A stretch of DNA of 21,143 nt from assembly GCA_013139755.1 (NCBI GenBank), contig WTAG01000567.1, positions 1-21,143 of the forward strand. The letters are read 5' to 3'. How positions within the stretch are numbered: the first letter of the stretch is position 1; every line of letters starts with the position of its first letter. Positions 5,694 through 20,924 of this stretch are shown in pieces. Below the pieces are notes generated by a model, which made no database searches, had not been told where the DNA came from, and was given only the letters and a program-made list of their open reading frames with translations. This stretch comes from Methylomarinum sp. (GTDB lineage Bacteria > Pseudomonadota > Gammaproteobacteria > Methylococcales > Methylomonadaceae). Made by a program: the position numbers and the translations under genes.

Positions 5694-5703
5694 AGGATGT
5701 GCT
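5692..5703. repeat. Short direct repeat ATAGGATGTGCT at the permease B start codon
   Basis: The same 12 bases recur at 5940-5951 as the left arm of the REP hairpin, in the same orientation, on the other side of the MITE-like element. This copy contains part of the minus-strand ATG (5691-5693) and occupies the place of the ribosome binding site. It looks like a half-REP left by insertion or rearrangement. Confidence 0.6.
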
Positions 5704-5720
5704 TATCTCTTGTATTGATT

Positions 5721-5921
5721 GGAAGTGAGGCTTTAGAGGCTGTGAAAGTATTAAGCTCTTATCCCCCTCTTTAGCAAAGAGGGGTTAGGGGAGATTTGAA
5801 TTTATAAAATAAAGTTTTTAAGATCAATGACCTTTTTTTTATAAAATCCCCCTCTATCCCCCTTTTCCAAAGGGGGAGGTCAAAAAGAGAATACTGTCAC
5901 TGCCTCTAAAGCCCCACTTCC
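5721..5921. mobile_element. 201-bp MITE-like nested palindrome inside the efflux operon
   Basis: Terminal inverted repeats of 32 bp (5721-5752 and 5890-5921) match at 29 of 32 positions; the outer sequence is GGAAGTGAGGCTTTAGAGGC. Inside are two more inverted blocks that mirror each other: CCCCTCTTT/AAAGAGGGG (5764-5772 with 5776-5784) and CCCCCTTT/AAAGGGGG (5858-5865 with 5869-5876). There is no coding capacity. A third copy of the 32-bp end lies at 20936-20967, showing that the sequence is dispersed. It falls between the adaptor and permease B genes, so a transcript crossing it would fold into a long hairpin and may lower or process permease B expression. No target-site duplication is clear. 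Confidence 0.85.
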
Positions 5922-5936
5922 TAGCTTAAACTGTTG

Positions 5937-5975
5937 AATATAGGATGTGCTGAGGAACGAAGCCTACCCTATATT
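5937..5975. repeat. REP hairpin, 'GAGGAACGAAGC' type
   Basis: The outer arms AATATAGG (5937-5944) and CCTATATT (5968-5975) pair perfectly. Inner bases ATGTGC and GCCTAC pair in part, around the loop core TGAGGAACGAA. It lies 22 bases downstream of the adaptor stop codon on the minus strand, a usual place for REP elements that protect or end upstream mRNA. With the MITE at 5721-5921 it fills the 304-base gap 5694-5997, which holds no gene. Confidence 0.7.
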
Positions 5976-5997
5976 AATACCTTGACCATTAAGAATA

Positions 5998-7230
5998 TTA
6001 ATGCGAAGTAGTCGGCCGCTTCCCTTTGCCTTTTTTATGATTGTGACCGTGTTTACCTGCTTTAGCGACATCCGAAGCTCGGTTCACTTTGGCATTATTT
6101 GCTGCAAAAGGCACGTAAGTGACACACAACTCTTCTCCTGCTGATAAGCCTTTTTTAACCAGTAACTTATCTTGGGTTTCCCATAAAATCTTGATGGTTT
6201 TTCGTTGTAAGCGGCTTTCTTTGTCAACCACCATAATGGTATCGTTTCCTTGTACTGCTGTACGAGGAAGCGCGTAGACATTTTCTAAAATTTGCCCTTT
6301 AATATCCGCTTTTACAAATTGGCCAATTTCTAGTGGCGGTCTGTTGTCGCTATGTCTTTGATAGGGGTTATCTATCTGTACAATAACAAACACCTGGCGA
6401 GTGGCTCTATCAACACTGCCTTCAGTTCGAACGACCTTACCTTTCCATTCAAAACTTTCACCCCCTATAGTGGCATAAACTGTGGCTTCCGGACCCTTGT
6501 ACGGCTTGTTCGACTCACCACGATAAGAACGCGGTAAATTAATCATGCCACGTTGTTTTTCTGTAATAGGTAGTCGAACTTCCACATAATCAATGGCAAA
6601 AATCTTAGCCAGTGGATTGCCTGGAGAAACGTATTGTCCTCGGTCAACAAATTGTTCCAGAATACGGCCTGCATAGGGTGCTTTGATCCGTGTACGTTTT
6701 AAATCCAGCTCAACGCGTTGCAGCTGTGCTTTTGCCGATGCTACACCTGCCTGGGCTCTAGCCAGTTGAGGTTTATGTAACACAAGATCCGAAGGCGCTT
6801 CGCTTCGCCCTAATCTTTTCCAGTTATCTGCTGCCTGATCTGCTTGCGCCTGTTCTTCTTTAAAATTAAACACCGCTTCAGACAGGGTGGCTTGAGCTGA
6901 TTTTATATCCAGCTTATAGTCTGTTGAGTCTATCGTGATAAGCGTATCGCCTGGCTCAAAAAACCCACCAGGACGAAAATTGGATGATACTTTAATGATT
7001 TCACCCGAGATACGGGGAATCAAGGTTGTTGTTGTCCTTGGTTCAACAATGCCCTGAGTACTAATAAGGATAGGAAAGTCTTGTGCTTGTAATTTGACAG
7101 TTTCAACGGTCAATGTTTTTGGGTGAGAGGGACGGCGTTTGGCAGCAGGTTTATTTATAAAAATTACATAAGCAATCAATAGGGCCACTGCGATAACGAA
7201 AAGAGGAAGTAGTTGTCGAATTAATTTCAT
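5998..7230 (-). CDS. RND periplasmic adaptor (membrane fusion protein), 410 aa
   Basis: This links an inner-membrane RND pump to the outer-membrane channel. The N-terminus is a signal-anchor (LLPLFVIAVALLIAYVIF, residues 7-24) without a lipobox, so it is probably inner-membrane tethered. Next comes a lipoyl/barrel half-motif (LIPRISGEIIKVS, about 70-82), a coiled-coil hairpin rich in Ala, Gln and Lys (about 105-180), the return lipoyl half (IKAPYAGRI, about 184-192) and a beta-barrel to about residue 385. The C-terminal tail is unusual: HGHNH at 394-398 followed by lysines and a terminal His410, a possible metal-binding or disordered tail. The ATG overlaps the stop of the outer-membrane channel gene (ATGA), so translation is coupled. 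It serves both permeases of the operon, as no other adaptor is present. Confidence 0.92.
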   Translation of the reverse strand: MKLIRQLLPLFVIAVALLIAYVIFINKPAAKRRPSHPKTLTVETVKLQAQDFPILISTQGIVEPRTTTTLIPRISGEIIKVSSNFRPGGFFEPGDTLITIDSTDYKLDIKSAQATLSEAVFNFKEEQAQADQAADNWKRLGRSEAPSDLVLHKPQLARAQAGVASAKAQLQRVELDLKRTRIKAPYAGRILEQFVDRGQYVSPGNPLAKIFAIDYVEVRLPITEKQRGMINLPRSYRGESNKPYKGPEATVYATIGGESFEWKGKVVRTEGSVDRATRQVFVIVQIDNPYQRHSDNRPPLEIGQFVKADIKGQILENVYALPRTAVQGNDTIMVVDKESRLQRKTIKILWETQDKLLVKKGLSAGEELCVTYVPFAANNAKVNRASDVAKAGKHGHNHKKGKGKRPTTSH

Positions 7231-8648
7231 TTTGATATTGGGGTAAGTACTGGGCCACCGAGTGCCAAATAAAGGTTTACGCGGTTTTGCAAGCGTTGTT
7301 TACGTAATTCAAGTAAGCTGTTTTCCGAGTTAAATGCACGACGCTGTGCTTCCAGCAGAGTGATAATATCTGTCAGACCTGTAATATAATCATTTTCAGC
7401 TAGGCGTTCAGCTTCATTAGATTCAATGGTTTCAGCTTGCATGAGTATCTGTTGCTTTTGTAACCATTTTTCAGCTGCCATGGTCGTTTCAACCTCTTGA
7501 AAAGCAGTTAAAACAATCTGTGAATAATCCGCTGCCGCTTGTTTTACCCGTGCTTTTGCTTGGCTACGTTCTGCAAATAATTGAGAACCATGAAATAATG
7601 GCTGGGTCAGATTACCCGCTATATTCCAGATTAAAACTTCAGGGTTGAAAATTTCATTTATTTTCTGTGTACTGGTACCGCCGCTACCACTGATTTGTAT
7701 AGTGGGAAACATGTTTTTTCTGGCTTTTATCATCCGTTGGTCAGAAGCAAAAAACCGTTGTTCAGCAGCAATAATATCGGGTCTGCGTTCAAGTAAATTT
7801 GAGGGAACACTGTTTGGCAGAGAATGAGTGACAGAGGGGAGTTGCTCTGGTAATTTCAGGTTTGCTGATGGATAGCGACCTAATAAGGATTCAAGGGTTC
7901 GGGTTGTTTCATCCTGAACTTTAAGAAAGTTCTGCTTGCGACCTTGTGCATTTAATAGACTGCTTCGTGCCAGACGCACATCAAGTGCTTGATAAAGTCC
8001 TCTATCATAACCCCCCTCAATAATATCCAAAGCATTTTGAAAACTAACAATAGTCTTTTCTGCCAGCTTAACCTGTTGTTTAGCAACAATGGCATCAAAC
8101 CAGGTTTTTGTAATATTAGCCGCTAAAGAAAGTTCTGCTGCATGCAAATCGGACTCGGATGCAGTTTGTTCATGTTGAGTGGCTTCCAATTCGTTGCCAA
8201 GCTTATACCAAAGGTCTATTTCCCATATAAAATCCAGACCAAAACCGACATTATTAGTACGTGAAGAGGAGACGGAAAAACCTGCCGCATTACTGCGCTG
8301 GTTTCTACTGGCTCTAACGCCAGCATTTATTTTTGGCGAGAAGGCAGACCATGATAACCAGGTTTGGTCTTCAGCAATTTCAATGCCCGCAATTAAGCTT
8401 TGTATACTTGGGTTTTGGCTAAACGCTTCTGCAACCAGATTATTTAGTTGAGGATCTGAAAATTCATCTAACCAAGGGCGGACTGATGCCTGTCTTTCTG
8501 AGCTTGCAGAAGACCATTGCTCAGGTATTTTTACTGTTTCAGGTGCCGAATCAGTTGGACTAAAATAACTACAACCTGGAAGTGTTAAGCCAAGCGACAC
8601 GATACAGGGAAGTGTTAGTAAAAAGTTTTTATTATTTTTTAATGCCAT
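7227..8648 (-). CDS. NodT/OprM-type outer-membrane efflux lipoprotein, 473 aa
   Basis: TolC-like outer-membrane channel of the pump. A lipoprotein signal ends in LPGC with Cys26 as the acylated residue, and the mature protein begins CSYFSP. Two OEP repeats follow, with the usual long helices (LVAEAFSQNPSIQSLIAGIE near 50-70; RRPDIIAAEQRFFASDQRMI near 288-307, the conserved 'ERRPDI' signature of the second repeat; LLEAQRRAFNSENSLLELRK near the end). The length is normal. The start is 2 bases after the stop of permease A and its RBS lies in the end of that gene. Its stop overlaps the adaptor start. The order permease, channel, adaptor, permease is less common than adaptor, permease, channel. 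Confidence 0.92.
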   Translation of the reverse strand: MALKNNKNFLLTLPCIVSLGLTLPGCSYFSPTDSAPETVKIPEQWSSASSERQASVRPWLDEFSDPQLNNLVAEAFSQNPSIQSLIAGIEIAEDQTWLSWSAFSPKINAGVRASRNQRSNAAGFSVSSSRTNNVGFGLDFIWEIDLWYKLGNELEATQHEQTASESDLHAAELSLAANITKTWFDAIVAKQQVKLAEKTIVSFQNALDIIEGGYDRGLYQALDVRLARSSLLNAQGRKQNFLKVQDETTRTLESLLGRYPSANLKLPEQLPSVTHSLPNSVPSNLLERRPDIIAAEQRFFASDQRMIKARKNMFPTIQISGSGGTSTQKINEIFNPEVLIWNIAGNLTQPLFHGSQLFAERSQAKARVKQAAADYSQIVLTAFQEVETTMAAEKWLQKQQILMQAETIESNEAERLAENDYITGLTDIITLLEAQRRAFNSENSLLELRKQRLQNRVNLYLALGGPVLTPISK

Positions 8649-8650
8649 GT

Positions 8651-11600
8651 TTATCTTCTTAATAATTGTTTGTCTTTGGCGCTAAACTTTCGGACAAAGC
8701 TAAACAAATCTTCTAAAATCATATAATTAATAGGAATCAGTAATAAGGTGATAAAAGTGGCAAACAAAATGCCAAAACCAAGTGAAACGGCCATCGGAAT
8801 TAGAAATTGAGCCTGTACATTTTTTTCAAACATCAGCGGTAATAATCCCGCAAAAGTCGTTAGGGAGGTTAGCATAATTGGACGAAAACGGGCGGCTCCT
8901 GCACGGGTAACGGCAAGGTGAAGATCATCTCCAGCCTGTTTTTTGCGATTGATAAAATCAACCAGCACCAAGCTGTCGTTAACCACGATACCAAGCAGGG
9001 CAACCATTCCGAGAATACTATTAATAGTTAGATTGATACCTAAGATCATATGGCCGAGTACGGCGCCTAATAAGCCAAATGGAATAGCAGACATAATAAT
9101 TAATGGCTGGCTATAGGACCTAAAAGGAATGGCAAGCATGGCATAAATTCCAACTAATGCCAGTAATGTGCCGGATACGGCACTGGAAAATGATTCGGCC
9201 TGGTCTTTAGCTTCCCCTATTAAATTGTATTGTATCCCTGGGTGAGAACCAATGGTCTGTTTAAGCCAGACGTTCAAGTCTCGTTTTAAGACCTCCATCT
9301 GTACCGTCTTTTTGTTGATATCTGCGGTGACATTAAGGGTACGAAAACGATCGGTACGATGGATTGCAGCGGCACTTCGGTCAACGGTTATTTGAGCAAC
9401 ATCGGCAAATGGAATTTCTACTCCTGTTGGCGTACGAATATACATTTGATTCAAGTTAGCAAGTGACTGCCTCTCTGCTGCGGGATAACGTACAACGATA
9501 CGAATGTCATCTCGTCCTCGCTGTATCCGCTGCGCTTGCTGACCAAGAAATGCCTGTTGTACCTGACGAGCTAAATCATCCAGCGTGATTCCCAGAAGTT
9601 CTGCTTCGGGCTTGATGCTGAGCTGTAACTCTTCTTTACCCTGTTCATAGTTATCAGAAATATCAAATACGCCAGGATACCCCATTAGATAACTTTGTAC
9701 CTGCTCAGAAAGTTCAGTTAATAGTTCAAAATCCTGGCCTTTTAATTCGATATCCAGCGGCATACCACCATGACGGATATGACCAACAAAACTGACTTTT
9801 TCTGCACCAGGAATTGAGCCAATCTGTCTTCTCCATTCTTTGGCTAACTGCTGAGAACTAATGCTCAATGAGCGAACTTCTGGTGGCACGATTTGAAACA
9901 TCACTCTGCCAAGATGCGACTGAGGATTACTTGTCCCCCCTGTACTACCAACAGAACTAAAAATAGCAGTAATAATACTTTTACCTGTCTCTGGGTCTAT
10001 ATATTTTTTCTGTAAATGTTCTGCCGCCTTAGCCATTTGGTACACATATTTTTCAGTGGTTTCAAACGGGGTGCCAACAGGCATGGTCAACGAACCTCTC
10101 GCTGTATCGCTTTGAGTTCTAGGGAAGAATGTGAAGCCAATCTGTCCACTGGCAATCAAAGTAACTAATACAATGGCAATGCCCAGAAACACAGAGAGTG
10201 ATAAATATCGCCGCTGGACTATTTTACTTAAAAATGGCGTATAAAAACGCTCAATAACTGATTCTAAACCATCTGCAAAACCACGTTGCCAACGACTCAG
10301 TAGGTGGTCATCGTCATTATCATCAATACGCAGGTATTTAAGATGCGCTGGTAAAATAAATTTCGATTCAATAAATGAAAAAATCAGTACCGAAATAACA
10401 ATAATAGGGACGACATTAAAAATACGGCTGAATGAACCGCCAGTATTCATCATCAATCCATAGAACGCCATGATGGTCGTTAACATACCAAAGGTGACAG
10501 GGACTGCAACATCTTGCGTCCCTTTAATAGCAGCCGTTGTGCCATCAGGGTCTTGTTTATTGCGTAGGCGCGAATAAATACTTTCACCGGTAACAATGGC
10601 ATCATCAACTACCAGTCCCAACACCATAATAAAAGCACCAACACTGGTGTAGTTAATACTTATTCCCATAATCGGCATCATTGCAAAAGAACCAATAATG
10701 GCCACAGGAATACCAACAGATACCCAGATTGCAATGGACAGGCGTAGAAACAAAGTCAATACAATAAAAATAAGAATCATACTCTGCACTGCACTATTTA
10801 ACAGTGTGGATAATCTTATTTTGATTGATTTGGCATGATCTCGCCAATAGGTCAATTCAACACCGGGTGGCAATGTACTTTGTTTGTCGGCTATATAATC
10901 TTTAACCGTTTGTGCAATTTCAATAACACTTTGGGTGCCAACTCTGAATACTTCAATTTTTACACTTCGTTTATCATTAAATGAAGTGGACAAAGGCTCT
11001 TCTTCAAAACCATCAATTACGGTAGCGATATCACCTAACCGCAGATGACTGCCATCTTCACGAGGCAGTAATATAATCCGTTCAAAATCAGCTTTTACAT
11101 AAGCCTGACCTTTAGTACGTAACAAAATTTCACCAGCAGAAGACTTCACCACCCCAGCAGGTAAATTAAGTGATGAGCTTTTAATCGCTTGAGTCACATC
11201 TCCCAGTGTTAAACCATAACGTCGCAGGTTTTTTTCAGATACCTCAATAGCGACTTCATAGGGCCTGACAGAGGTTAATTGAACTAAAGAAACGCCCGGT
11301 AGTGCAGCAATGTCATCACGAACCCATTCACCAATCTTGCGTAATTCACTCTCAGGAATATCCGCAGCAACAATCACGCTAATCACTTCCCAGCGTCTTT
11401 GTGCAACTGCAATCACAGGCCGTTCACTATCATCAGGAAAGGTATTAATGGTATCAACTCGAGCTTTTATATCTTCCAGTAGTTTTCTCGGGTCGTAAGT
11501 TTCAAGCACTTCAAAAGTAACAGTGGCACTACTTTCTACGGCGGAGGAACTGATACTTTTAATCCCCTCAAGGTCTTGAGTAATTTCTTCAATACGAATA

Positions 11601-11794
11601 ACAATACTTTCTTCAACTTCCGCAGGGGTTGCACCTCGGTATGCCACAGTCACAGTAATACTGTCCATTTGTGAGGCTGGGTGGGCTTCAACAATAATTT
11701 TTCCTAATGATGCAATGCCCCATAGCAGAATGGCAAGCATCAGTAAATTGGCTGCAATGCTGTTTCGGGTAAACCAGCTGATAAGGGCATTCAT
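8651..11794 (-). CDS. RND efflux permease subunit A (AcrB/HAE1-like), 1047 aa
   Basis: First gene of the pump operon. TM1 reads WFTRNSIAANLLML (7-20); the porter domain and TM2-6 follow. The proton-relay pair is in GLVVDDAIV (Asp397, Asp398). TM10 reads MVALLGIVVNDSLVLVDFI, so the site of the AcrB TM10 lysine is occupied by Asn with a following Asp, as in permease B. Both genes share this and the block FRPIMLTSLTTFAGLLPLMF or a close form of it, which places them in one subfamily and suggests an ancient duplication. The N-terminal porter regions are the most diverged, which fits different substrate sites. The upstream region is the 571-base divergent intergenic stretch. The SD is weak (GGAT about 11 bases upstream). 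The substrate is unknown. Confidence 0.93.
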   Translation of the reverse strand: MNALISWFTRNSIAANLLMLAILLWGIASLGKIIVEAHPASQMDSITVTVAYRGATPAEVEESIVIRIEEITQDLEGIKSISSSAVESSATVTFEVLETYDPRKLLEDIKARVDTINTFPDDSERPVIAVAQRRWEVISVIVAADIPESELRKIGEWVRDDIAALPGVSLVQLTSVRPYEVAIEVSEKNLRRYGLTLGDVTQAIKSSSLNLPAGVVKSSAGEILLRTKGQAYVKADFERIILLPREDGSHLRLGDIATVIDGFEEEPLSTSFNDKRSVKIEVFRVGTQSVIEIAQTVKDYIADKQSTLPPGVELTYWRDHAKSIKIRLSTLLNSAVQSMILIFIVLTLFLRLSIAIWVSVGIPVAIIGSFAMMPIMGISINYTSVGAFIMVLGLVVDDAIVTGESIYSRLRNKQDPDGTTAAIKGTQDVAVPVTFGMLTTIMAFYGLMMNTGGSFSRIFNVVPIIVISVLIFSFIESKFILPAHLKYLRIDDNDDDHLLSRWQRGFADGLESVIERFYTPFLSKIVQRRYLSLSVFLGIAIVLVTLIASGQIGFTFFPRTQSDTARGSLTMPVGTPFETTEKYVYQMAKAAEHLQKKYIDPETGKSIITAIFSSVGSTGGTSNPQSHLGRVMFQIVPPEVRSLSISSQQLAKEWRRQIGSIPGAEKVSFVGHIRHGGMPLDIELKGQDFELLTELSEQVQSYLMGYPGVFDISDNYEQGKEELQLSIKPEAELLGITLDDLARQVQQAFLGQQAQRIQRGRDDIRIVVRYPAAERQSLANLNQMYIRTPTGVEIPFADVAQITVDRSAAAIHRTDRFRTLNVTADINKKTVQMEVLKRDLNVWLKQTIGSHPGIQYNLIGEAKDQAESFSSAVSGTLLALVGIYAMLAIPFRSYSQPLIIMSAIPFGLLGAVLGHMILGINLTINSILGMVALLGIVVNDSLVLVDFINRKKQAGDDLHLAVTRAGAARFRPIMLTSLTTFAGLLPLMFEKNVQAQFLIPMAVSLGFGILFATFITLLLIPINYMILEDLFSFVRKFSAKDKQLLRR

Positions 11795-11967: not shown

Positions 11968-12352
11968 ATTATTTAAGCAGACCAAAGCCTGCGTCCCAGA
12001 ATACTAATGCTCTGAGTTTTATTAAGAATAGTCAAAATATAAAGCAAATAATGCGCCAATACTTAGTTTATAAGCCTGTGGCTTGTATAGAGCCATGTAA
12101 AGAATAACAAAGACATAATAACAACGAAGTAGCCATAAAAAACTGTCGATATTATTTTTAAGCGTATTGCTGTATAAGTTTCTTGTAAGTCATATCCCAC
12201 AGTAAGTAGGTCATATCCCACATAAAAGGACAGGTTTTCAAGGTCTCTAATATTCAAAATGTTCTGTAAGGCATGCTTATAAGCGAATCTCCCATGTTGG
12301 CTTAAATCCTGCTTTATTCTTTTGAATCACTTTTCTTTAAGTTGAATGGATA
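11968..12352. other. Divergent intergenic region, mostly unassigned
   Basis: Together with the REP cluster this is the 571-base space (11795-12365) between the leftward pump operon and the rightward reductase operon, and must hold both promoters. A short hairpin TATAAGCC-TGT-GGCTT lies at 12070-12084 and the direct repeats at 12190-12222. I find no convincing -35/-10 pair. A 64-codon minus-strand frame (12063-12257) lacks an ATG and an RBS and is not counted as a gene. Confidence 0.4.
12190..12222. promoter_or_regulatory. Direct repeats TCATATCCCACA spaced exactly 21 bp, candidate operator
   Basis: Two identical 12-mers (12190-12201 and 12211-12222), each preceded by a partial GTAAG, start 21 bases apart, two turns of B-DNA, so both would face the same side. 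This is the geometry of sites bound by tandem dimers of a response regulator or similar activator. They lie about 145 bases before the start of the reductase operon and about 400 bases before the pump operon, and could serve either. The regulator is unknown and no regulator gene is in the window. Confidence 0.4.
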
Positions 12353-12365
12353 AGCAGGAGTTACC

Positions 12366-13373
12366 ATGAAACATTCTTTAGCTTTAATATTATTGGGCCT
12401 GGTATTAAGTAGTAAATTATTTGCCAGTACTGAGCAACTCTGGTTTTCTGATCAGCCACCTGATAAGTCGATGATTAAAAAAATGCGAATGCGTCATGGC
12501 GGCTATGTTCATGTCGATAAGGGTGTTGATGTAAAGCAGTTATGGTTAAGACGAGGCGAGAGCCTGCAAAAATCTGCTTATTTAGAATCGGCTGAAGGTG
12601 AGTATCAGGTATTAAATGTTCAGGCAGATTTAGATCAGTCTGAAATCGAGAAAAATTCAAAACAACAGTCAATTCGCTTCCCAATGCCTGATGAAGGGTA
12701 TTACAACGCTTATTTTACTGAGCGCCTGGTTAGCAATAGCATATTAGGGGTGAAAACGGCTAAAGCTGAGATTCTAAAGCATAACTGTAGAAACGGGCAT
12801 AAATACGATAGAAATCTGGTAAATTCACAACAATGGAATGATGCGCCATTGGATATCGTTAGATTGCGCCTGCCAGAGGAGGATTTTCATACCCGTATCC
12901 GATCTGGCACATTAGTAAAATTTCAAGTGTTTCATCAAGGCAAGCCAGTAGTAGGTGCCAATGTAAAACTAGAAACTAAACGGGGCTGGATCAAGTCTAC
13001 CCTAAGTGATAAGCAAGGTATTGCCAGTTTTCAAATTATTCAAGATAACTTCTTTGATGCAGATAAAGCTGAAAAAGAGGGTGAAAAAGTCGAACGTGGC
13101 CATGGCGGGCGGGTACGTATCAGGGATGGTTATCTGGTCACAGCACAGTATCAGACAGATGAGGCGGGTATATTGGCTGACAAAGTATTTAGCAAAACAG
13201 AATATACCGTTTCATCAACAGGGCGTTATTACCCACAACAACTGGCTAAAAAATCTTCAGAACAAGCGCTATGGTTTGCAAGTGCGGGTATGTTGGTCAT
13301 GGGGGTAGGCGGCTATAGCTACCGTAGGCGACGAGTTAAACCTTTCAAGGAGGAACAGTTTGATGAGCATTAA
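12366..13373 (+). CDS. Exported DUF4198-like protein with C-terminal membrane anchor, 335 aa
   Basis: A Sec signal peptide (1-20, ending LFA) is followed by an extracytoplasmic beta-rich region. Residues about 161-225 (PLDIVRLRLP, GTLVKFQVFHQGKPVVGANVK, then SDKQGIASFQI) fit the Ig-like fold of DUF4198 and carboxypeptidase-regulatory domains, seen in envelope proteins linked to metal uptake such as nickel. A His-rich spot (HGG at 44-46, HKY at 145-147, HGG at 246-248) could bind metal. The C-terminus has one membrane helix (about 302-318) ending in RRRR, giving N-outside orientation. The RBS GCAGGAG is 6 bases before the ATG. Its stop overlaps the next gene by 11 bases, so it is the first gene of the coupled operon. 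Role unknown; periplasmic partner or sensor for the membrane ferredoxin is an inference. Confidence 0.75.
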   Translation: MKHSLALILLGLVLSSKLFASTEQLWFSDQPPDKSMIKKMRMRHGGYVHVDKGVDVKQLWLRRGESLQKSAYLESAEGEYQVLNVQADLDQSEIEKNSKQQSIRFPMPDEGYYNAYFTERLVSNSILGVKTAKAEILKHNCRNGHKYDRNLVNSQQWNDAPLDIVRLRLPEEDFHTRIRSGTLVKFQVFHQGKPVVGANVKLETKRGWIKSTLSDKQGIASFQIIQDNFFDADKAEKEGEKVERGHGGRVRIRDGYLVTAQYQTDEAGILADKVFSKTEYTVSSTGRYYPQQLAKKSSEQALWFASAGMLVMGVGGYSYRRRRVKPFKEEQFDEH

Positions 13374-14334
13374 GTCACGGATAGACAGGGTAGATCTACG
13401 CCCTTTTCGCTTCTGGTTTCAACTGCTGGCGTTTATATTTCTGGTTTATGGTGGGCATTTAGCGGTTGATCTTGGGAATAGTTTGCCAACTTTTTCCTGT
13501 GGCTATAACAGTAAAGGTACGGCTGGAGTGTGTTATTTATTACCTTTGCAACATCAATTGGCCCAGCCCTGGGAACGATTGTTCAGTCCAGCGGGTATTG
13601 CGGTACTAAGCGGCTTTGGTTTGTTTATTTTATGGTTTGTGGTGCTTAACAAGGCCTGGTGTGGCTATATCTGTCCTTTAGGGACTATTCAGGACTGGAT
13701 AACAGGGCTACGCAAACGTATGGGGATTCCCTATAGCAACTACAGTGATGATCATTTTAATAAACTTAAAGTCATTAAATATTTTTTATTATTGGCTTTA
13801 ATCTTTATACCGCTGGCGATAGGTGGGCAGTTTATCTCTCATGACTGGGGTGTACCTTTTTGTAAGATTTGTCCAGCCAGAATGATTATTCCAGCATTTA
13901 ATGGCGACTTTTCCCAGTGGACCATCGACTTTTCCAGTAATACCAAAATGGTATTGACGGCATTAGGTATGTTTATCGTCGGTTTATTTTTAGTGGGTTC
14001 TTTTGTAAAAAAACGCTTCTTCTGCTTTTTTTGTCCAATGAGTGCTTTTCATTTTATTTTTTCAAAACTATCCATCTTAAAGTTAAAAAAAGACGGCTCA
14101 AAATGTACTGTGTGTGGGGATTGTTATCGTGTTTGTGATATGCAAATCAAGCCTATTGCAGACGATATTAAGAGTGTAGATATTTTAAAAGATGATTGTA
14201 TTTTTTGTTTAAAGTGTGTTGCAGCCTGCCCTGAAGAGGGCGCGCTAAAAGTTGATATATTAGGGGAAACAGTATTTGAAGCAACCCGAGGTGGCTTTAA
14301 TAAACGCATGGGGAACGAAAAAAATGACAGTTGA
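13363..14334 (+). CDS. NapH/MauN/NosR-type membrane 4Fe-4S electron-transfer protein, 323 aa
   Basis: A polytopic membrane protein (helices near 17-35, 76-97, 138-157, 195-213) with cytoplasmic iron-sulfur sites. It has the family motif CGYICPLG (100-107), CKICPAR (167-173) and CFFCPMS (221-227), then two ferredoxin-type [4Fe-4S] sets: C248xxC251xxC254xxxC258 and C279xxC282xxC285xxxC289P. NapH-like proteins take electrons from quinol or a periplasmic donor to a cytoplasmic or periplasmic acceptor. Here the acceptor is probably the ATPase activator two genes downstream (inference). The ATG at 13363 is preferred over the TTG three bases earlier because AAGGAGGA lies 8 bases upstream. It overlaps the previous gene by 11 bases and the next by 11 bases. 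Confidence 0.88.
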   Translation: MSIKSRIDRVDLRPFRFWFQLLAFIFLVYGGHLAVDLGNSLPTFSCGYNSKGTAGVCYLLPLQHQLAQPWERLFSPAGIAVLSGFGLFILWFVVLNKAWCGYICPLGTIQDWITGLRKRMGIPYSNYSDDHFNKLKVIKYFLLLALIFIPLAIGGQFISHDWGVPFCKICPARMIIPAFNGDFSQWTIDFSSNTKMVLTALGMFIVGLFLVGSFVKKRFFCFFCPMSAFHFIFSKLSILKLKKDGSKCTVCGDCYRVCDMQIKPIADDIKSVDILKDDCIFCLKCVAACPEEGALKVDILGETVFEATRGGFNKRMGNEKNDS

Positions 14335-15607
14335 AACCGAGCAGAGAGAGATTGAAGATAGTCAGCAAAAGCATATTCGTCATCAGGGTATGGAAGCAAT
14401 GCAGGTGTTAGATGTTATTGAAAAAGATTTTTCTGATAACCCTGAAGCTATGCAGTATTTTTACGATTTATTCAGAGATGTCTATTGCAATGGTATCAAG
14501 CCTCATCCTGATAAAGAAATGATTGGTACCATGTGTGTGCAAGTCCCTGATGAAATTATTCATGCAGCGGGAGGAATTCCTGTACGCATGTGTAATGGTT
14601 TTTATAGAGAGGAAGAGGCGGGGGGCGAGTTTATGCCCGCTAAGTCCTGCTCATTAGTCAAAGCCTCACTGGGTATGCTGAAAAGTAAAACTAACCCTTA
14701 TAGTGACGGTATTAAAACCATCGTAAATCCTACCACTTGTGACCAGAAAAAGAAGTCTGCAGGTATGATGCGTGAAATGGGGTATAAAATTTACGATATG
14801 GAACTACCCCCTGTTAAAGAATCAGAAATTGGTCGGGAATATTGGCGACGTTCGGTAAGGTTGTTTACTAAAGAAGTTGGTAAAATCACGGGCAAGAAAG
14901 TGACTCGAAAACGGCTAAAAGAAACAATCGGAAAAATTGGTCGTGCCCAGAATGCTTATCACCGATTAAACGAAGCTCGTAAATTAACGCCTTTACCCTT
15001 TTTAGGTAAAGATATGTTTGTGGTTACCAATGCTTTCTTTTTTGATGATCTTGAGCGATGGACATTAGCAACAGAAAAACTGGCTGATGAAATTGATAAG
15101 CGAGTTGAAAATAAATATAACACGGCGGGGAAACGCTCCCCGCGTATTGTATTTACAGGTTCACCTCCTGTATTCCCCAATTTAAAAGTGCCATTAATGA
15201 TAGAGCAATCAGATGCAGTGATTGTGGCAGATGAGACCTGTTCTTCTAATAGATTATTAAACGATATGGTCTCGGTAGATGAGTGGTTTATGTATGACAT
15301 GGTGGATGCGGTGGCTGACCGCTATTTAAAATCCTGTACCTGTCCGATTTTTACTATGAATGATGACAGAATTCGTCGTTTAATAGAGTTAGTACGTTCA
15401 TCAAATGCAGACGGGGTGATTTATCAGGCGTTTGCGGGCTGTGGCGTTTATGAAATGGAACAGCGCAGTGTGGCCAAGGCAATGGAAAAAGAGGGTATCC
15501 CCATGTTGTACATAGAAACAGATTACAGCCCCAGTCAGGGAGGGCAACTATCAACAAGAATAGAAGCCTTTGTTGAATCATTAAAAGCAAGAAGCAGGAG
15601 GAAGTAA
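14324..15607 (+). CDS. 2-hydroxyacyl-CoA dehydratase D-type / double-cubane cluster protein, 427 aa
   Basis: Substrate-reducing component of an ATP-dependent low-potential reductase. The HgdB/FldB/BcrB/YjiM family fold is clear: CVQVPDEIIHAAGGIPVR (71-88), PAKSCSLVKASLG (105-117), PTTCDQKKK (136-144), ADETCSSNR (302-310), CPIFTMNDDR (340-349), AGCGVYEME (371-379) and ETDYSPSQGGQLSTRIEAF (398-416). Six Cys (71, 109, 139, 306, 340, 373) sit in two sets of three at similar spacing, as expected for a homodimer binding an [8Fe-9S] double-cubane cluster. True 2-hydroxyacyl-CoA dehydratases need two different subunits, and only one is here. The ATG at 14324 is chosen (SD GGGGAACGA); an upstream TTG lies inside the ferredoxin gene. 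The gene is followed by its activator with a TAATG overlap. The natural substrate is unknown; known members reduce small molecules such as acetylene or azide in vitro. Confidence 0.85.
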   Translation: MTVETEQREIEDSQQKHIRHQGMEAMQVLDVIEKDFSDNPEAMQYFYDLFRDVYCNGIKPHPDKEMIGTMCVQVPDEIIHAAGGIPVRMCNGFYREEEAGGEFMPAKSCSLVKASLGMLKSKTNPYSDGIKTIVNPTTCDQKKKSAGMMREMGYKIYDMELPPVKESEIGREYWRRSVRLFTKEVGKITGKKVTRKRLKETIGKIGRAQNAYHRLNEARKLTPLPFLGKDMFVVTNAFFFDDLERWTLATEKLADEIDKRVENKYNTAGKRSPRIVFTGSPPVFPNLKVPLMIEQSDAVIVADETCSSNRLLNDMVSVDEWFMYDMVDAVADRYLKSCTCPIFTMNDDRIRRLIELVRSSNADGVIYQAFAGCGVYEMEQRSVAKAMEKEGIPMLYIETDYSPSQGGQLSTRIEAFVESLKARSRRK

Positions 15608-16542
15608 TGGAGTATTTTGCAGGTATTGATATAGGTTCAACAGCCGTAAAAGTTGCTGTCATTGATGCGGACAGACAGATTTTAGGTAGTAAAGTAGCAA
15701 AAACGGGAGCTTTAGTTTATAAGAATGCACAAACCGCCTTTCTGTCTTTACTCGCCGAAATAGGATTAAAAAGAAAAGATATTACTTATTTAACCACCAC
15801 AGGCTATGGACGAAAATTATTTGAAGATGCCGATGAAACGATTAGTGAAATCACCGCTAATGCTATTGGAGCCAAGCAGGTGGGGAAACCGTTTGGAACC
15901 ATTAGAACCATTATTAATATAGGTGGGCAGGACTCCAAAGCGATTAGTCTGGATGAAGATGGCAATGTCTCTAATTTTGCTATGAATGATCGTTGCGCAG
16001 CAGGTACGGGGCGGTTTTTAGATATGGCTGCGCGTAACCTGGAAATTGAAACCACTGATTTAGGTGAGTTTCATTATAATGCCCAAGGCACGCCAGCAGC
16101 GGTTAATGCAACTTGTGCGGTGTTTGCCGAGTCTGAGATTATAGGCTTATTGGGTAAAGGCCATGAGCGAGAAGAAATTGTTAAAGGGATTCATTTTTCA
16201 ATCGCCAAACGCACCATTCGATTAGTTAAGCGCGTTGGGGTGCAAGAATTACTCTATTTCGACGGTGGTCCAGCACTTAATAAAGGCTTGGTGGCTTCAT
16301 TAGAAGATGAATTGGGTAAACGATTGGTTATCCCTGAATTTCCACAAGTAACAACAGCTTATGGGGCAGCCATTATTGGTCAGGAATCTTATCAATATGA
16401 AAAAGAAGAACAGGAACAGCTCTCCTCAGAAACAGAAAATCAAAGTTTAGAGCTGGCTGAGCAATATAAATCAACACTGGATCCTAAGTTTTCTAAAACA
16501 ACTGGCGGTGCTTGTGGCACCAGTAGTTGCAGCAGTTGCTAA
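15607..16542 (+). CDS. ASKHA ATPase activator (HgdC/BadF-type) of the reductase, 311 aa
   Basis: Homodimeric [4Fe-4S] ATPase that injects one electron at a time into the partner upon ATP hydrolysis. ATP-binding motifs are GIDIGSTAVK (6-15), NIGGQDSKAI (104-113), and FDGGPALNKG (218-227). The bridging cluster ligands are Cys130 (NDRCAAGTGRF) and Cys170 (NATCAVFAESE), as in HgdC. The body ends near residue 262; a charged linker and a Cys-rich tail GGACGTSSCSSC (300-311; Cys303, 308, 311) follow, which the basic family fold does not need. The TAATG overlap at 15605-15609 couples it to the reductase gene, and another TAATG at 16540-16544 couples it to the next gene. Low potential electrons must come from a ferredoxin or flavodoxin; the NapH-like protein is the local candidate. 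Confidence 0.9.
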   Translation: MEYFAGIDIGSTAVKVAVIDADRQILGSKVAKTGALVYKNAQTAFLSLLAEIGLKRKDITYLTTTGYGRKLFEDADETISEITANAIGAKQVGKPFGTIRTIINIGGQDSKAISLDEDGNVSNFAMNDRCAAGTGRFLDMAARNLEIETTDLGEFHYNAQGTPAAVNATCAVFAESEIIGLLGKGHEREEIVKGIHFSIAKRTIRLVKRVGVQELLYFDGGPALNKGLVASLEDELGKRLVIPEFPQVTTAYGAAIIGQESYQYEKEEQEQLSSETENQSLELAEQYKSTLDPKFSKTTGGACGTSSCSSC

Positions 16543-17198
16543 TGGAAAATTATCTGCTAAATTTACCCACCGTTTTTTTCATCGGTTTAGTCTTTGGTAT
16601 CGGTCCTTGTACTATCACCTGTTTACCTTATTTAGGTCCGGTATTTTTATCCAAAGAAGGAGGGATAAAAGATTCCTGGAAAATTATTTTACCTTTTTCC
16701 ATGGGGCGTATGAGTAGCTATACCGCGCTGGGTGCTTTGTCAGGTTATGCTGGTGAGTCAATAGAAAAGGTGATTCACACACCTATGGTGGCATGGGTAT
16801 TAGGCGGAGCAACCGTCGCAGTGGGTCTGCTTATATTTTGGCGATCATACCGGAATAAGCCGGGCTGTGGTTCTCATGGTAATCGACACAAACTACAGGA
16901 CAATCCTTTTTTACCCGGCGGTCTGTTTTTTATGGGTGTGGGTATGGCTGCAACGCCTTGTGCGCCACTGGCTACCATTATGTTAACAGCTGCCGCAACG
17001 GCCAGTACTTTTTCAGGTTTTTTACTGGGTTTTAGTTTTGGTGTCGGGGCGGTACTGGTTCCCGCTTTAGTGTTTGGAATAGGGATGGCTTATTTCGGGC
17101 AACGGATTAGAGAAATCATGCAGGTCTGGCGATCTGTATTAGAGCGAGCCAGCGCCTGTTTATTAATTATATTAGGGGTTGGAACTATGACGGGATAG
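16542..17198 (+). CDS. CcdA/DsbD-like or SafE-type integral membrane protein, 218 aa
   Basis: Six or so membrane helices with internal symmetry: GIGPCTITCLPYLGPVF (19-35) in the first half and VGMAATPCAPLATIM (133-147) in the second half, each with the Pro-Cys turn seen in CcdA/DsbD transmembrane domains and in SafE-like proteins. Cys23, Cys27 and Cys140 could form the thiol pair that carries reducing equivalents across the membrane. A cytoplasmic or periplasmic loop holds GCGSHGNRH (108-116), a possible metal site. The ATG at 16542 overlapping the activator stop (TAATG) is chosen over a TTG five codons upstream. Last gene of the coupled operon. A role in thiol/electron export or in sulfur handling for the double-cubane system is an inference; general 'sulfite exporter' labels for such proteins should not be read as function. 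Confidence 0.8.
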   Translation: MENYLLNLPTVFFIGLVFGIGPCTITCLPYLGPVFLSKEGGIKDSWKIILPFSMGRMSSYTALGALSGYAGESIEKVIHTPMVAWVLGGATVAVGLLIFWRSYRNKPGCGSHGNRHKLQDNPFLPGGLFFMGVGMAATPCAPLATIMLTAAATASTFSGFLLGFSFGVGAVLVPALVFGIGMAYFGQRIREIMQVWRSVLERASACLLIILGVGTMTG

Positions 17199-17387: not shown

Positions 17388-19442
17388 ATGAAAAAAAAAC
17401 TAAGTATTGTTATCCCTCTATTAACACTTCCATTTTCAAGTGCTGTCTTTGCTGAAGAACCCGTAAATACGGTTTCAGATGAAGAAAGTGTTGGCTCTGT
17501 ATTAACATTAGATAGTATGGCGGTTACAGCAACTGTCGGAGACGCAAAATTAGGAGGCATTGATATAAAGTCTCTGCCTATTGCTTCTACAATTGTGAGT
17601 CAAGAAGAAATTAAACGTTTAAAATATGTGAGTCCAGATGAGTTACTGGATAGAATTCCTGGGGAATCTACATCTAGGAATCTTCGTATACCCGCTGGTG
17701 GTAAATCATACACTATTCCTCTTATCGATGGTGCGGCCTTAGGAAGTCCTTTAAGTGGGTCAACTCAAGCGTTTGGTGACACGGTAAATTCACAAGATAT
17801 TGAACGAATAGAAATTTTCAAAGGACCTGTTTCTGCTTTGTACCCCAACAACGCTTTTGGTGGCGTGATAAACGTCGTTAGTAAAGGGTCTACACAATTA
17901 CCAGAACAGAATACACGATTATGGGCGGAAGCAGGTAATTACGATCGGTATCGTGGTGGTGTGAGCACTCAAGGTAATATAAATGACATAGGCTATATGT
18001 TTGATTTTAGCAGCTGGAATTTGAGTGCTTATCGCGACCAAGCCTTGATTGATGGAATTGAACATGAGGTGGGGGAAGAAAGGCAACAAGCCAGTGGTAA
18101 ATTTATTTTTCACCCAGATGATGTTTCTTCATTAGTTATTCGTGGCTCATATTTAAACATCCATTCAACAAGCCCTGGAGAACTTGATCAATCAGAATTT
18201 GATGCGGATGATGCTCAAATGGGGGCAGAAAGTGGTTTTTTTACCAATGAAGAAAGCTATTTAACTTCGGCAATTTATAAAAGAGATATTACCGAATCGG
18301 ATCATTTAGAGGCCAATTTTACTTTTAAATATCATGATGAAGACGGTGATTCTAGGTTTGGAGGTGTTAGTGCCGATATTAATACTGACTATAATGGAAA
18401 GGTCAGCTTAAAACATGATTTTGATTTTTGGGATGCTAATTTCATCATTGGTACTGATATATATATGGGGTTTAATGATGACTTTAATCCTGATGATAAT
18501 GATTTTGATTATGCAACAACTGATATTTATGCTGGTTTTGCTCAAATACAATTTTCACCTATAGAAAACCTGCAAATTACTGCAGGTGTACGACATGAAA
18601 GTATTGATTTGGAGCATCGTAACTCTACAGATCGTGTTCAGAATAGTAAATCATTTTCAGCTACCTTACCTAAAGTAGGTATTAGTTATGACTTCTTGGA
18701 TACTCAGCGTATTTGGTTTGCTTATGGCGAAGGATTTTTAGTTCCGACTACAGGTTCATTGTGGACAACCAGTAGAGGAGCAAATCCCAACCTAAACCCT
18801 GAAGAAGCAGAGCATTTTGAAGTTGGCTTGCGAGGTGTGTTGCCAGTATTTGGAGCAGACTTAACTTATGATACTTCGTATTATTATCAGGATATTAAGC
18901 AATATGTGGTGTCTACGCTTATAGATGGTCGCAGGGCTACACAGGAAAATGCAGGGAAAGTAAATTTTCAAGGGGTAGAAACCGTTATAGAGTACCAGCC
19001 TTTTGATTATATCAGGTTTGGAGTGACTCATACTTTTGCCAGCAATACTTTTAAAGAGTATGTCGATAGTAAAGGTAATGATTTAAGTGGGGAGGAGTTG
19101 AGAGGTTCTCCTGAGCACCATATTAATGGCCGAGTTGCTGTTATGCCTATGGAAGGATTGGCAATTGAAGTAGGCGTTGATTCTACAACATCGTATTCCA
19201 CAGTAGAAAACTCGTCATTTGATCCAAAGGGGCGCTTTGAACGAGATGAGCGAATTAATTTACGGTTAACTTATGATAAAGGTCCTTATGAACTTTGGTT
19301 TCATGCCTTAAATATTGGCGATGTTAAAGAAGACAGAGTCAGTTATAGCACTCCTCGGAGAGGAGACCCTCGGAGTGGAGAGCGATCAATCAGAACAGTA
19401 GATGGTCTGCAATTATACGGTGGTATTGCTTATAATTTCTAA
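17388..19442 (+). CDS. TonB-dependent outer-membrane receptor, 684 aa
   Basis: Energised uptake channel. A Sec signal peptide (1-22, ending VFA) is followed by a likely TonB box near LDSMAVTAT (41-49). The plug domain covers about 50-165: LPIASTIVSQEEIKRL, SPDELLDRIPG, VNSQDIERIEIFKGPVSALY, and FGGVINVVSKGS. A 22-strand barrel follows, with many Asp-rich outer loops (DDDFNPDDNDFD near 363-374), and ends in the C-terminal aromatic signature YGGIAYNF. The length is normal. The plug lacks an N-terminal signalling extension, so no sigma/anti-sigma partner is expected. A strong terminator follows. Acidic loops fit a cationic or metal-chelate ligand, but the ligand is unknown. The PepSY protein next door suggests a metal complex reduced in the periplasm. 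Confidence 0.92.
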   Translation: MKKKLSIVIPLLTLPFSSAVFAEEPVNTVSDEESVGSVLTLDSMAVTATVGDAKLGGIDIKSLPIASTIVSQEEIKRLKYVSPDELLDRIPGESTSRNLRIPAGGKSYTIPLIDGAALGSPLSGSTQAFGDTVNSQDIERIEIFKGPVSALYPNNAFGGVINVVSKGSTQLPEQNTRLWAEAGNYDRYRGGVSTQGNINDIGYMFDFSSWNLSAYRDQALIDGIEHEVGEERQQASGKFIFHPDDVSSLVIRGSYLNIHSTSPGELDQSEFDADDAQMGAESGFFTNEESYLTSAIYKRDITESDHLEANFTFKYHDEDGDSRFGGVSADINTDYNGKVSLKHDFDFWDANFIIGTDIYMGFNDDFNPDDNDFDYATTDIYAGFAQIQFSPIENLQITAGVRHESIDLEHRNSTDRVQNSKSFSATLPKVGISYDFLDTQRIWFAYGEGFLVPTTGSLWTTSRGANPNLNPEEAEHFEVGLRGVLPVFGADLTYDTSYYYQDIKQYVVSTLIDGRRATQENAGKVNFQGVETVIEYQPFDYIRFGVTHTFASNTFKEYVDSKGNDLSGEELRGSPEHHINGRVAVMPMEGLAIEVGVDSTTSYSTVENSSFDPKGRFERDERINLRLTYDKGPYELWFHALNIGDVKEDRVSYSTPRRGDPRSGERSIRTVDGLQLYGGIAYNF

Positions 19443-19507: not shown

Positions 19508-19544
19508 AGCGATGTAAAATCCTTATTTTTAGAAGGTGATTATC

Positions 19545-20924
19545 ATGACAAACTCATCAACTTCAAGTGCTGTAATCTCAAAACGTGCAGCCAGCCGTAA
19601 ACTTTATCAATTAATAATCCGCTGGCATTTTTTCTGTGGCTTATTCTTTATCCCTTTAATTTTGGTAATCAGTATTAGTGGTTGTATTTATCTATTTGAA
19701 GATGAGTACGAAGAATATATGTATCAAGATTTATTATTTGTAAATCCGGCTGAGACAGTGTTGCCAGCCTCCATCTTGATGGCTAAAGCAAAATCAGCTG
19801 TATCAGGAGGCTTAAGAGCCAGCCAGTTTAAAAGTTTTGAAGAAAAAGACCGTAGTATAGAAATTATTTTTAAAGCCAAGCCAATGAAACATGCCAAGAC
19901 CAGCATGGAATGGGCGGGGGATGGTCCAGAAAAAGTGCCTATGGTAATGAATGAAGAAAGAACCAGTGTTTTTCTTAATCCCTACACCGGCGCAATATTA
20001 GGCAGCATTAAAAGTAGTGATCGCTTAATGGGTTTTATGAAAGATCTGCATGGTAATTTATTAACCGGGAAAGTGGGAACCAAGTTGGTTGAATTAACTT
20101 CCTGCTGGGTGGGGATGTTGATGACCACAGGCTTGATTATGTGGTGGCCCAGAGGGAAGACAGGGGTGATGGGAACCTTAATACCTCGGTTAAATAAAAA
20201 CAAACGATTGTTTTGGCGCGATTTACATGCAGTCCCCGCTTTTTACTTTTCATTTTTTATTATTTTTTTGATTATCAGTGGCTTGCCGTGGACTGATGTA
20301 TGGGGCGAAGCTTTTCACACTATTCAACGTGATTTCAAAATGTCTGCCCCTGCTGGGTTTCATTCCAGAGAATTAAAATCTAAATATTTTATGGGAGCTG
20401 AACAAATCTCAATTGATACGGTGATATCTGAGGCTAAAAGCCGCGGTTATCAAGGCGAGTTGAATGTCAAAATCCCTAAAAGCATGCGGGATACTTATGC
20501 CATTCAGCGCAACTCTGATGATCCGGCAGAAAGGCCTTCTATGCATTTTGATCAGTACACTGGAAAAGTTTTAGCGGCGAGTGACTGGGATAAAGTACCG
20601 TTGTTAGCCAAATCGGTCAGCTATGGCATTAAACTACATAGAGGGGAATATTTTGGGGTGTGGAATTTGGTGCTGGTTTTAGTGACCACCTTAGTGCTTA
20701 TTTTTATGGCAATATCAGGCATTGTTTTATGGTTACAAAGAAGACCTAAAGGTAAATTAGGTGCACCTAAATATCCCAGAGATTATAAGCAACCTCGTTG
20801 GCTTATTGGGACTACCATAGGATTTTCTCTGTTTATGCCATTACTGGGTGCGTCTTTAGTTATATTTGTTTTAGGCGACTGGGTTTATACAAAGAGTATT
20901 AGTTTTAAGTTAAAAACCAGTTAG
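19545..20924 (+). CDS. PepSY-domain membrane protein (PiuB/iron-uptake reductase-like), 459 aa
   Basis: Inner-membrane protein of the PepSY-associated TM family, which is linked to siderophore or other metal-complex reduction and usually pairs with a TonB receptor. Four membrane segments carry conserved His: RWHFFCGLFFIPLILVISIS (26-45, His28), MKDLHGNLL (165-173, His169), RDLHAVPAFYFSFFIIFLII (225-244, His228) and KLHRGEYFGVWNLVLVLV (363-380, His365); these are candidate haem ligands. The periplasmic part has PepSY-like strands (FLNPYTGAILGSI, 143-155; HFDQYTGKVLAASDW, 334-348). A final helix pair spans about 420-447. The ATG at 19545 is preferred to the upstream GTG because AGAAGG lies 8 bases before it. 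The neighbour upstream is the TonB receptor. Function as a metal-complex reductase is from family context. Confidence 0.88.
   Translation: MTNSSTSSAVISKRAASRKLYQLIIRWHFFCGLFFIPLILVISISGCIYLFEDEYEEYMYQDLLFVNPAETVLPASILMAKAKSAVSGGLRASQFKSFEEKDRSIEIIFKAKPMKHAKTSMEWAGDGPEKVPMVMNEERTSVFLNPYTGAILGSIKSSDRLMGFMKDLHGNLLTGKVGTKLVELTSCWVGMLMTTGLIMWWPRGKTGVMGTLIPRLNKNKRLFWRDLHAVPAFYFSFFIIFLIISGLPWTDVWGEAFHTIQRDFKMSAPAGFHSRELKSKYFMGAEQISIDTVISEAKSRGYQGELNVKIPKSMRDTYAIQRNSDDPAERPSMHFDQYTGKVLAASDWDKVPLLAKSVSYGIKLHRGEYFGVWNLVLVLVTTLVLIFMAISGIVLWLQRRPKGKLGAPKYPRDYKQPRWLIGTTIGFSLFMPLLGASLVIFVLGDWVYTKSISFKLKTS

Follow-up and report, generated by a model that had tools for sequence, protein, structure and literature searches.

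The locus examined here raises the question of why a double-cubane cluster protein (DCCP) and its ATP-driven activator should be encoded in one overlapping run with envelope proteins. The run lies at positions 12366..17198 of the window, by which we mean the whole analysed stretch of 21,143 nucleotides from Methylomarinum sp. (contig WTAG01000567.1), and consists of five genes:

12366..13373, + strand: gene 1, exported DUF4198-fold protein with a single transmembrane (TM) anchor
13363..14334, + strand: gene 2, NapH-like membrane polyferredoxin with four clear TM peaks and 16 invariant cysteines
14324..15607, + strand: gene 3, DCCP of the HGD-D family, belonging to an envelope-linked clade
15607..16542, + strand: gene 4, ASKHA ATPase activator
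16542..17198, + strand: gene 5, CcdA/DsbD-type membrane protein (PF13386; such proteins carry the annotation SafE-like elsewhere)

An earlier reading of the letters of this DNA (the sequence-only reading) had described five genes joined by two 11-bp overlaps and then two TAATG overlaps, and we verified this arrangement. As shown below, the gene unit holds up as real and specific, and its conservation extends across several phyla. As to its role, our tentative answer is that it forms an envelope-spanning, ATP-boosted reductive uptake unit.

By its sequence, gene 3 is a DCCP and gene 4 is its activator. Gene 3 scored 358.5 bits against the DCCP equivalog NF040772 (curated cut-off 350), in agreement with the double-cubane type that had been proposed for it. 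Seven of its cysteines (C71, C90, C109, C139, C306, C340, and C373) align with cysteines of the known DCCP structure 7yyl and are unchanged in 30 of 30 clade rows, and these are candidates for binding the [8Fe-9S] cluster. Gene 4 reached 230 bits against TIGR00241 (cut-off 125), and its residues C130 and C170, which we take to be candidate [4Fe-4S] ligands of the activator, are present in all 77 aligned rows. The pair thereby resembles the DCCP of Carboxydothermus hydrogenoformans (PDB 6eno, 7yyl), with which it shares the HGD-D fold scoring over the NF040772 cut-off, the seven cysteines, and an adjacent ASKHA activator with two conserved cysteines. It differs from that protein in belonging to a separate clade that is fixed to NapH and DUF4198 genes and is nearly always near a TonB receptor. 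In a tree of 53 rows chosen by hand from 91, midpoint-rooted for drawing only and flagged by the program for long branches, the envelope-linked DCCP clade (39 rows) was split from the other DCCPs with a support of 100/100.

The D-type subunit and the activator are also homologous to those of class I benzoyl-CoA reductases and 2-hydroxyacyl-CoA dehydratases, and we examined gene 3 as a member of such a two-subunit enzyme. This candidate was rejected, as gene 3 scored far below the respective cut-offs (HadC 86/700, BzdN 77.9/453.8, and BcrC 76.3/421 bits) and no second HGD-D protein was found among the 14 open reading frames (ORFs) of the window that were scanned.

Is the association with envelope genes specific? 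A search with a profile of 30 gene-3 sequences, by way of two conserved peptide patterns in a one-genome-per-species collection, yielded 79 loci, mainly in Campylobacterota, but also in Methylococcales, Bacteroidota, and one Calditrichota metagenome-assembled genome. Their neighbourhoods were labelled by a six-frame pass with hidden Markov models built from the same loci, so that the counts measure neighbourhood and are not independent discovery. The NapH-like gene was the next labelled feature upstream of the DCCP, within 400 bp, in 69 of the 69 loci with room for it, and the activator was the next labelled feature downstream in 76 of 76 testable loci. For more distant partners, we used the 42 long-flank loci, whose fetched sequence extended 6 kb or more upstream and 5 kb or more downstream, counting over the whole fetched stretch of up to 10 kb on each side and on either strand. 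DUF4198 was present in 42/42 of these loci, a TonB receptor in 39/42, and SafE in 37/42; less frequent were ExbB (20/42), ExbD (20/42), TonB (18/42), RND (15/42), a NosL domain, fused or separate and scored with a home-made model (8/42), and CobN (3/42). The genes thus adjoin wherever the clade DCCP was found, with the stated exceptions for SafE, which bears out the earlier proposals that they form one functional unit and that this unit is placed at the envelope.

The phylum to which a Sulfurimonas genome (G004, with locus L018) belongs was represented by 298 genomes. In these, the DCCP profile matched 52 places in 47 genomes, and the places fell into two groups: 20 places in 17 genomes above 740 bits, and 32 places below 290 bits. 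The NapH-like profile matched at 23 places with more than 500 bits, and these lie in just the 17 genomes that have a clade DCCP. In this search and in that of the 201 genomes below, at most 7-11 NapH candidates were scored per genome, so that the copy counts are to be read as minima and a copy may have been missed. Twenty control regions, each with flanks of about 8 kb and together covering 21 of the 32 lower-scoring places, represented the surroundings of other Campylobacterota DCCPs. All 20 contained the activator, none contained NapH or DUF4198, two had a TonB receptor (on the other strand and not adjacent), and one had a weak SafE match. The 11 lower-scoring places outside the control regions include eight with in-frame stops, namely one stop inside an ordinary DCCP-like match in each of G238, G258, G288, G319, G324, G362, G419, and G421 (seven TAG, one TAA).

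In 201 genomes from the order of the L068 genome (presumably Methylococcales), the DCCP and NapH profiles matched the same five genomes, one of which (G020) showed partial matches on two contigs, and of 296 genomes in the order that the Lutibacter genome represents, the seed genome alone gave a match. Because DCCP and NapH share 17/298 and 5/201 genomes, with 1/296 in the third set, the unit is rare, patchy, and kept together. A rare and patchy distribution is also what transferred gene clusters show, and would suit the view that an ordinary DCCP pair has come to lie beside envelope genes by chance or for purely historical reasons. However, the overlapping genes, the adjacency in 69/69 and 76/76 loci, the co-occurrence in two phyla, and the absence of NapH from all 20 control regions make such a coincidence hardly credible. 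Carriage on mobile plasmids was considered as well and rejected, as only one of 24 plasmid records with a DCCP-like match, that of Sulfurovum mangrovi, also has a NapH-like gene; in S. mangrovi ST1-3, the unit is plasmid-borne. As a side aspect, L034, L039, L050, and L075 share a common block downstream of the unit that includes an integrase family (Pfam-checked in L034), which suggests a genomic island.

The components are not equally conserved. Between 8 Methylococcales and 51 Campylobacterota loci, with rows missing a component dropped, the mean identity was 59% for the DCCP, 62% for the activator, and 59% for NapH, in contrast to 27% for SafE, 27% for DUF4198, and 20% for the receptor. Judged by these identities, the unit appears to consist of a conserved engine (DCCP, activator, and NapH) and a variable periphery.

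What does the NapH-like protein contribute? Gene 2 has the layout of the NapH/NosR/CcoG polyferredoxins, that is, four TM helices, two CxxC(x)P-type motifs (CxxxCP-type in that family) predicted to be cytosolic, and a C-terminal dicluster ferredoxin; of this family, E. coli NapH was the protein aligned. It scored below the NapH/MauN cut-offs (77.3/213 for TIGR02163 and 75.9/234 for NapH). Sixteen cysteines are unchanged in 51 of 51 rows of the alignment, twelve of which are also present in E. coli NapH. The four that are missing there (C46, C57, C167, and C170) lie in two loops that are poor in lysine and arginine (fractions of 0.04 and 0.05, versus 0.14-0.24 elsewhere), and they may form a cluster or metal site on the side predicted to be periplasmic; by these four residues, gene 2 differs from E. 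coli NapH.

The envelope partners are the products of genes 1 and 5 and the receptor, and the window contains further genes that may be accessory:

17388..19442, + strand: TonB-dependent outer-membrane receptor, starting 190 bp past gene 5
19536..20924, + strand: PepSY_TM membrane protein, accessory
2589..11794, - strand: RND permease, membrane-fusion, outer-membrane efflux, and second RND permease genes, possibly accessory

Gene 1 has the DUF4198 fold, at a score below the Pfam gathering score (22.7 versus 34), and the tail C-terminal to its TM segment is conserved (YRRRRVKPFKEEQFDEH in the window). Campylobacterota often have DUF4198 as the C-terminal domain of a larger protein (720-919 aa) whose N-terminus is Fer4_5, which we take to be a NosR/NapH-type domain; in L018, a NosL domain (Pfam, 60.9 bits) stands between Fer4_5 and DUF4198 in one protein. 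Gene 5 scored 81.3 bits against PF13386 (cut-off 24.9), and its C28, C32, C114, and C145 (numbered from the TTG at 16527) are present in 53 of 53 aligned rows. By domain score and paired TM cysteines, it fits the CcdA/DsbD transmembrane thiol carriers. An ORF homologous to the PepSY_TM gene of the window likewise stands behind the receptor in L003.

In which direction do the electrons flow? Two NapH-like genes accompany a single DCCP in 9 of the 79 loci (L033, L036, L039, L050, L053, L075, L077, L078, and L081), and seven of these nine also carry two DUF4198 genes. Among the 17 clade genomes of the phylum set, three (G345, G456, and G457) have two NapH genes and one DCCP, one of the G456 copies having an in-frame stop. 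The five genomes with a middling NapH score of 209-342 bits (G250, G423, G440, G063, and G142) gave no DCCP match at 1e-60. All five have a receptor, a DUF4198-like ORF, NapH, and SafE in one row, the DUF4198 matches being weak (14-46 bits) and the NapH frame being broken in L178. The layout of the window reads as this outer module with the DCCP and activator inserted between NapH and SafE. As the outer module exists without the DCCP and is repeated per receptor, NapH would lie on the substrate side, and the DCCP-activator pair looks like an optional, add-on source of a stronger reductant. The conserved DCCP, activator, and NapH, as opposed to the divergent SafE, DUF4198, and receptor, agree with NapH being on the substrate side.

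The sequence-only reading had placed the relay the other way round, with a membrane electron relay feeding the activator from the respiratory chain. Indeed, NapH and NosR relatives usually draw electrons from quinol. In this alternative, the quinol pool or some other donor in the membrane would supply the NapH-like protein, which would pass the electrons on to the activator, and the DCCP would reduce a small molecule in the cytoplasm. That NapH directly precedes the DCCP in 69/69 loci is in line with this, as is the reported reduction of acetylene, hydrazine, and azide by a DCCP (PMC11971306). However, an inward relay leaves DUF4198 and the receptor without an evident role, and the NapH-DUF4198-receptor modules that are duplicated beside one DCCP, or present in five DCCP-less genomes, speak against it. 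Moreover, unless further energy is put in, quinol is ill suited to reducing an activator of very low potential. We thus consider the inward relay unlikely. The duplicated modules, the DCCP-less modules, and the four extra predicted-periplasmic cysteines of NapH fit outward flow better, and with moderate confidence we prefer to the inward relay a reading in which electrons would run outward through NapH to a metal compound imported via TonB.

How such a unit might work can be outlined in steps. The TonB receptor would carry a complexed metal into the periplasm, where the anchored DUF4198 protein would take over the complex and dock at the inner membrane via its conserved cytosolic tail. In the cytoplasm, the activator would hydrolyse ATP and load the DCCP with electrons of very low potential. 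The NapH-like protein would receive these electrons at its cytosolic ferredoxin domain and conduct them across the membrane to a site at its four cysteines predicted to be periplasmic. There, the metal or its ligand would be reduced, and the metal would be freed for ordinary ion uptake. SafE would give thiol reductant or handle the metal, and nearby RND pumps, in loci that have them, may export the spent ligand. In short, a cytoplasmic nitrogenase-like, ATP-driven double cubane would charge a transmembrane Fe-S wire, and interchangeable receptor modules would present different metal chelates in the periplasm; a single engine would thereby serve several outer modules with electrons far below the usual potentials of biology, a picture that we put forward even more tentatively than the uptake function itself. 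In theory, spending one ATP on each electron could give access to about -1 V, and double cubanes are able to serve as electron relays (PMC11971306); in the activation complex of MCR, complex Fe-S clusters form an electron path in an ATP-driven system (PMC12176620).

The closest functional parallels that we see are the TonB-linked PepSY_TM reductases FoxB, FpvG, and CrpH, which likewise pair a TonB receptor with a redox protein of the inner membrane that works on the periplasmic side; the window resembles these systems also by the PepSY_TM gene behind its receptor. In the unit, however, a NapH-like Fe-S polyferredoxin takes the place of the heme reductase as the conserved redox protein, and its partner is an ATP-driven double-cubane protein.

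Which cargo would require such a donor? A metal is hinted at by the fold of gene 1, the NosL domains in some loci, and the PepSY_TM gene behind the receptor of the window. Some ferric chelates have very negative potentials, and as an ATP-driven donor would pay there, we lean to these: the most likely cargo is a ferric chelate too stable for ordinary reductants, with copper as the second choice. In Caulobacter and Alteromonas, DUF4198 genes have been found next to TonB receptors under iron regulation (PMC3751524, PMC7190382), and such genes have also been reported beside NikR and TonB receptor genes (PMC12537917), and the PepSY_TM family comprises periplasmic metal-chelate reductases including the copper-linked CrpH (PMC13038864). 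In the Bacteroidota loci L069 and L071 (coding sequences near 8102 and 17832), a Met/His-rich lipoprotein precedes a TonB receptor, with a weak YtkA match in L071, and a small family of Cys-bearing proteins of about 125 aa stands before the receptors; both may point to copper.

The cargo could also be organic. The DCCP would then act as a terminal reductase in the cytosol, its substrate being an imported ligand such as a tetrapyrrole or siderophore scaffold, and NapH and SafE would serve redox balance or transport. CobN-family and MotA/ExbB-like genes adjoin the unit in L005-L008, as in the hmu heme operon, whose HmuS, a CobN-family heme dechelatase, extracts iron from heme (PMC12583661), and double-cubane relatives perform Birch-type reductions (PMC11971306). 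The likeness to Hmu is closest in L006, where the receptor stands beside CobN, a MotA/ExbB-like gene, and DUF2149; these were confirmed by Pfam in L006 only, and the CobN family was also labelled in L005, L007, and L008. In contrast to Hmu, for which DCCP, NapH, and DUF4198 are not mentioned in the available portion of the report (PMC12583661), the window has no CobN. Furthermore, CobN was found in Methylococcales loci only (3/42 long-flank loci), the conserved core has no inner-membrane importer, and receptors and DUF4198 proteins vary widely although the engine is conserved, so that we regard reduction of an organic ligand as improbable.

The NosL domains and Fer4_5 fusions in Campylobacterota would also suit a unit that serves the maturation or reactivation of a metalloenzyme in the periplasm, N2O reductase for instance, by supplying low-potential electrons via a NosR/NapH-type wire, and nosZ scored over its cut-off in 9/17 clade genomes versus 78/281 others. 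On the other hand, 8/17 clade genomes have no nosZ over the cut-off, for which reason N2O reductase maturation was rejected as the general role, and apart from the families named in this text no gene family recurs in most neighbourhoods. Maturation of a metalloenzyme is therefore quite improbable. Nitrogen fixation was likewise rejected as a specific partner: nifH scored over its cut-off in 10/17 clade genomes versus 35/281 others, but also in 15/30 genomes having only another DCCP, and its presence seems to follow lifestyle.

Several observations weigh against outward reduction of an imported metal complex. The analysis gave no substrate identity for the unit: family scoring of the receptors yielded no assignment, the receptor of the window being below every specific receptor-family cut-off shown and the receptors across loci being mixed. 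The DCCP may itself be the terminal enzyme, as DCCPs have been reported to reduce substrates themselves. The periplasmic location of the four NapH cysteines follows from hydropathy and charge, and a weak fifth hydropathy peak (residues 221-239, 1.48) would, if it were a TM segment, flip the ferredoxin domain. The structure model of gene 2 is moderate (pLDDT 74.6, and below 50 around C46 and C57), and a fold search with it against the PDB gave zero matches. L020, L040, and L068 have no receptor within reach, L068 being among the nearest relatives of the window, and SafE is absent from L033 and four Bacteroidota loci (L071, L074, L077, and L081), although in the other groups it usually accompanies the unit. 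In L077 and L081, the second NapH comes without a second DUF4198, and the possible misses in the NapH searches belong here as well. The likely mature N-terminus of gene 1, judged by eye, has no histidine, whereas an N-terminal histidine was reported in 79% of DUF4198 proteins (PMC12537917). Finally, metal-dependent regulation, as expected of TonB-linked metal uptake, did not appear for Fur, NikR, Zur, or CueR sites. Fur boxes were not enriched at 90 cluster starts and receptors compared with 85 control starts (mean best match 11.8 versus 11.75, p 0.33), and the strict FNR, NikR, Zur, and CueR patterns had zero matches in 92 starts; a loose FNR pattern occurred in 3/92 starts versus 1/85 controls.

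In the literature searched, within one collection, there was no description linking a DCCP or 2-hydroxyacyl-CoA dehydratase type to TonB, and in agreement with the sequence-only reading we found no described pathway for the gene set. As the biological function of DCCPs was called unknown in a 2025 paper (PMC11971306), a DCCP clade whose genes, across the loci studied, always come with a membrane Fe-S relay and nearly always with a TonB receptor offers a concrete, testable role. If our reading is true, the unit would exemplify the export of ATP-derived low-potential electrons across the inner membrane, and the reading suggests a way in which methanotrophs and sulfur-oxidising Campylobacterota could draw on metals bound in very stable complexes.

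Upstream of the unit and of the receptor, we noticed sigma-54-like sites by eye in Methylococcales and scored them afterwards, so that they are a lead only:

12298..12313, + strand: sigma-54-like -24/-12 site before gene 1, TGGCTTAAATCCTGCT, post hoc; similar site in L068
17329..17344, + strand: sigma-54-like site before the TonB receptor gene, TGGTATGACCTTTGCA, post hoc

Scores of at least 12.5 were reached by 8/92 starts versus 3/85 controls (whole-set p 0.26). Seven of these top 8 belong to the window or to Methylococcales, with no grouping in other phyla; such sites stand before the unit or receptor also in L003, L004, L008, L009, and L068, and the score in L006 was low (11.0). Riboswitches were found neither in the window nor in L003, L004, L009, L068, L011, L018, or L039, where the search returned RNase P and tmRNA only, and a PADLOC scan for anti-phage defence gave zero matches. 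Also upstream of gene 1, a direct repeat, TCATATCCCAC, occurs in two copies 21 bp apart (12190-12221) and is absent from L068. Near the start of the window lie a superoxide dismutase of the Fe/Mn type with a sub-threshold TAT signal match (850-1566) and an ORF with an IS200-like transposase domain (Y1_Tnp; 1644-2180).

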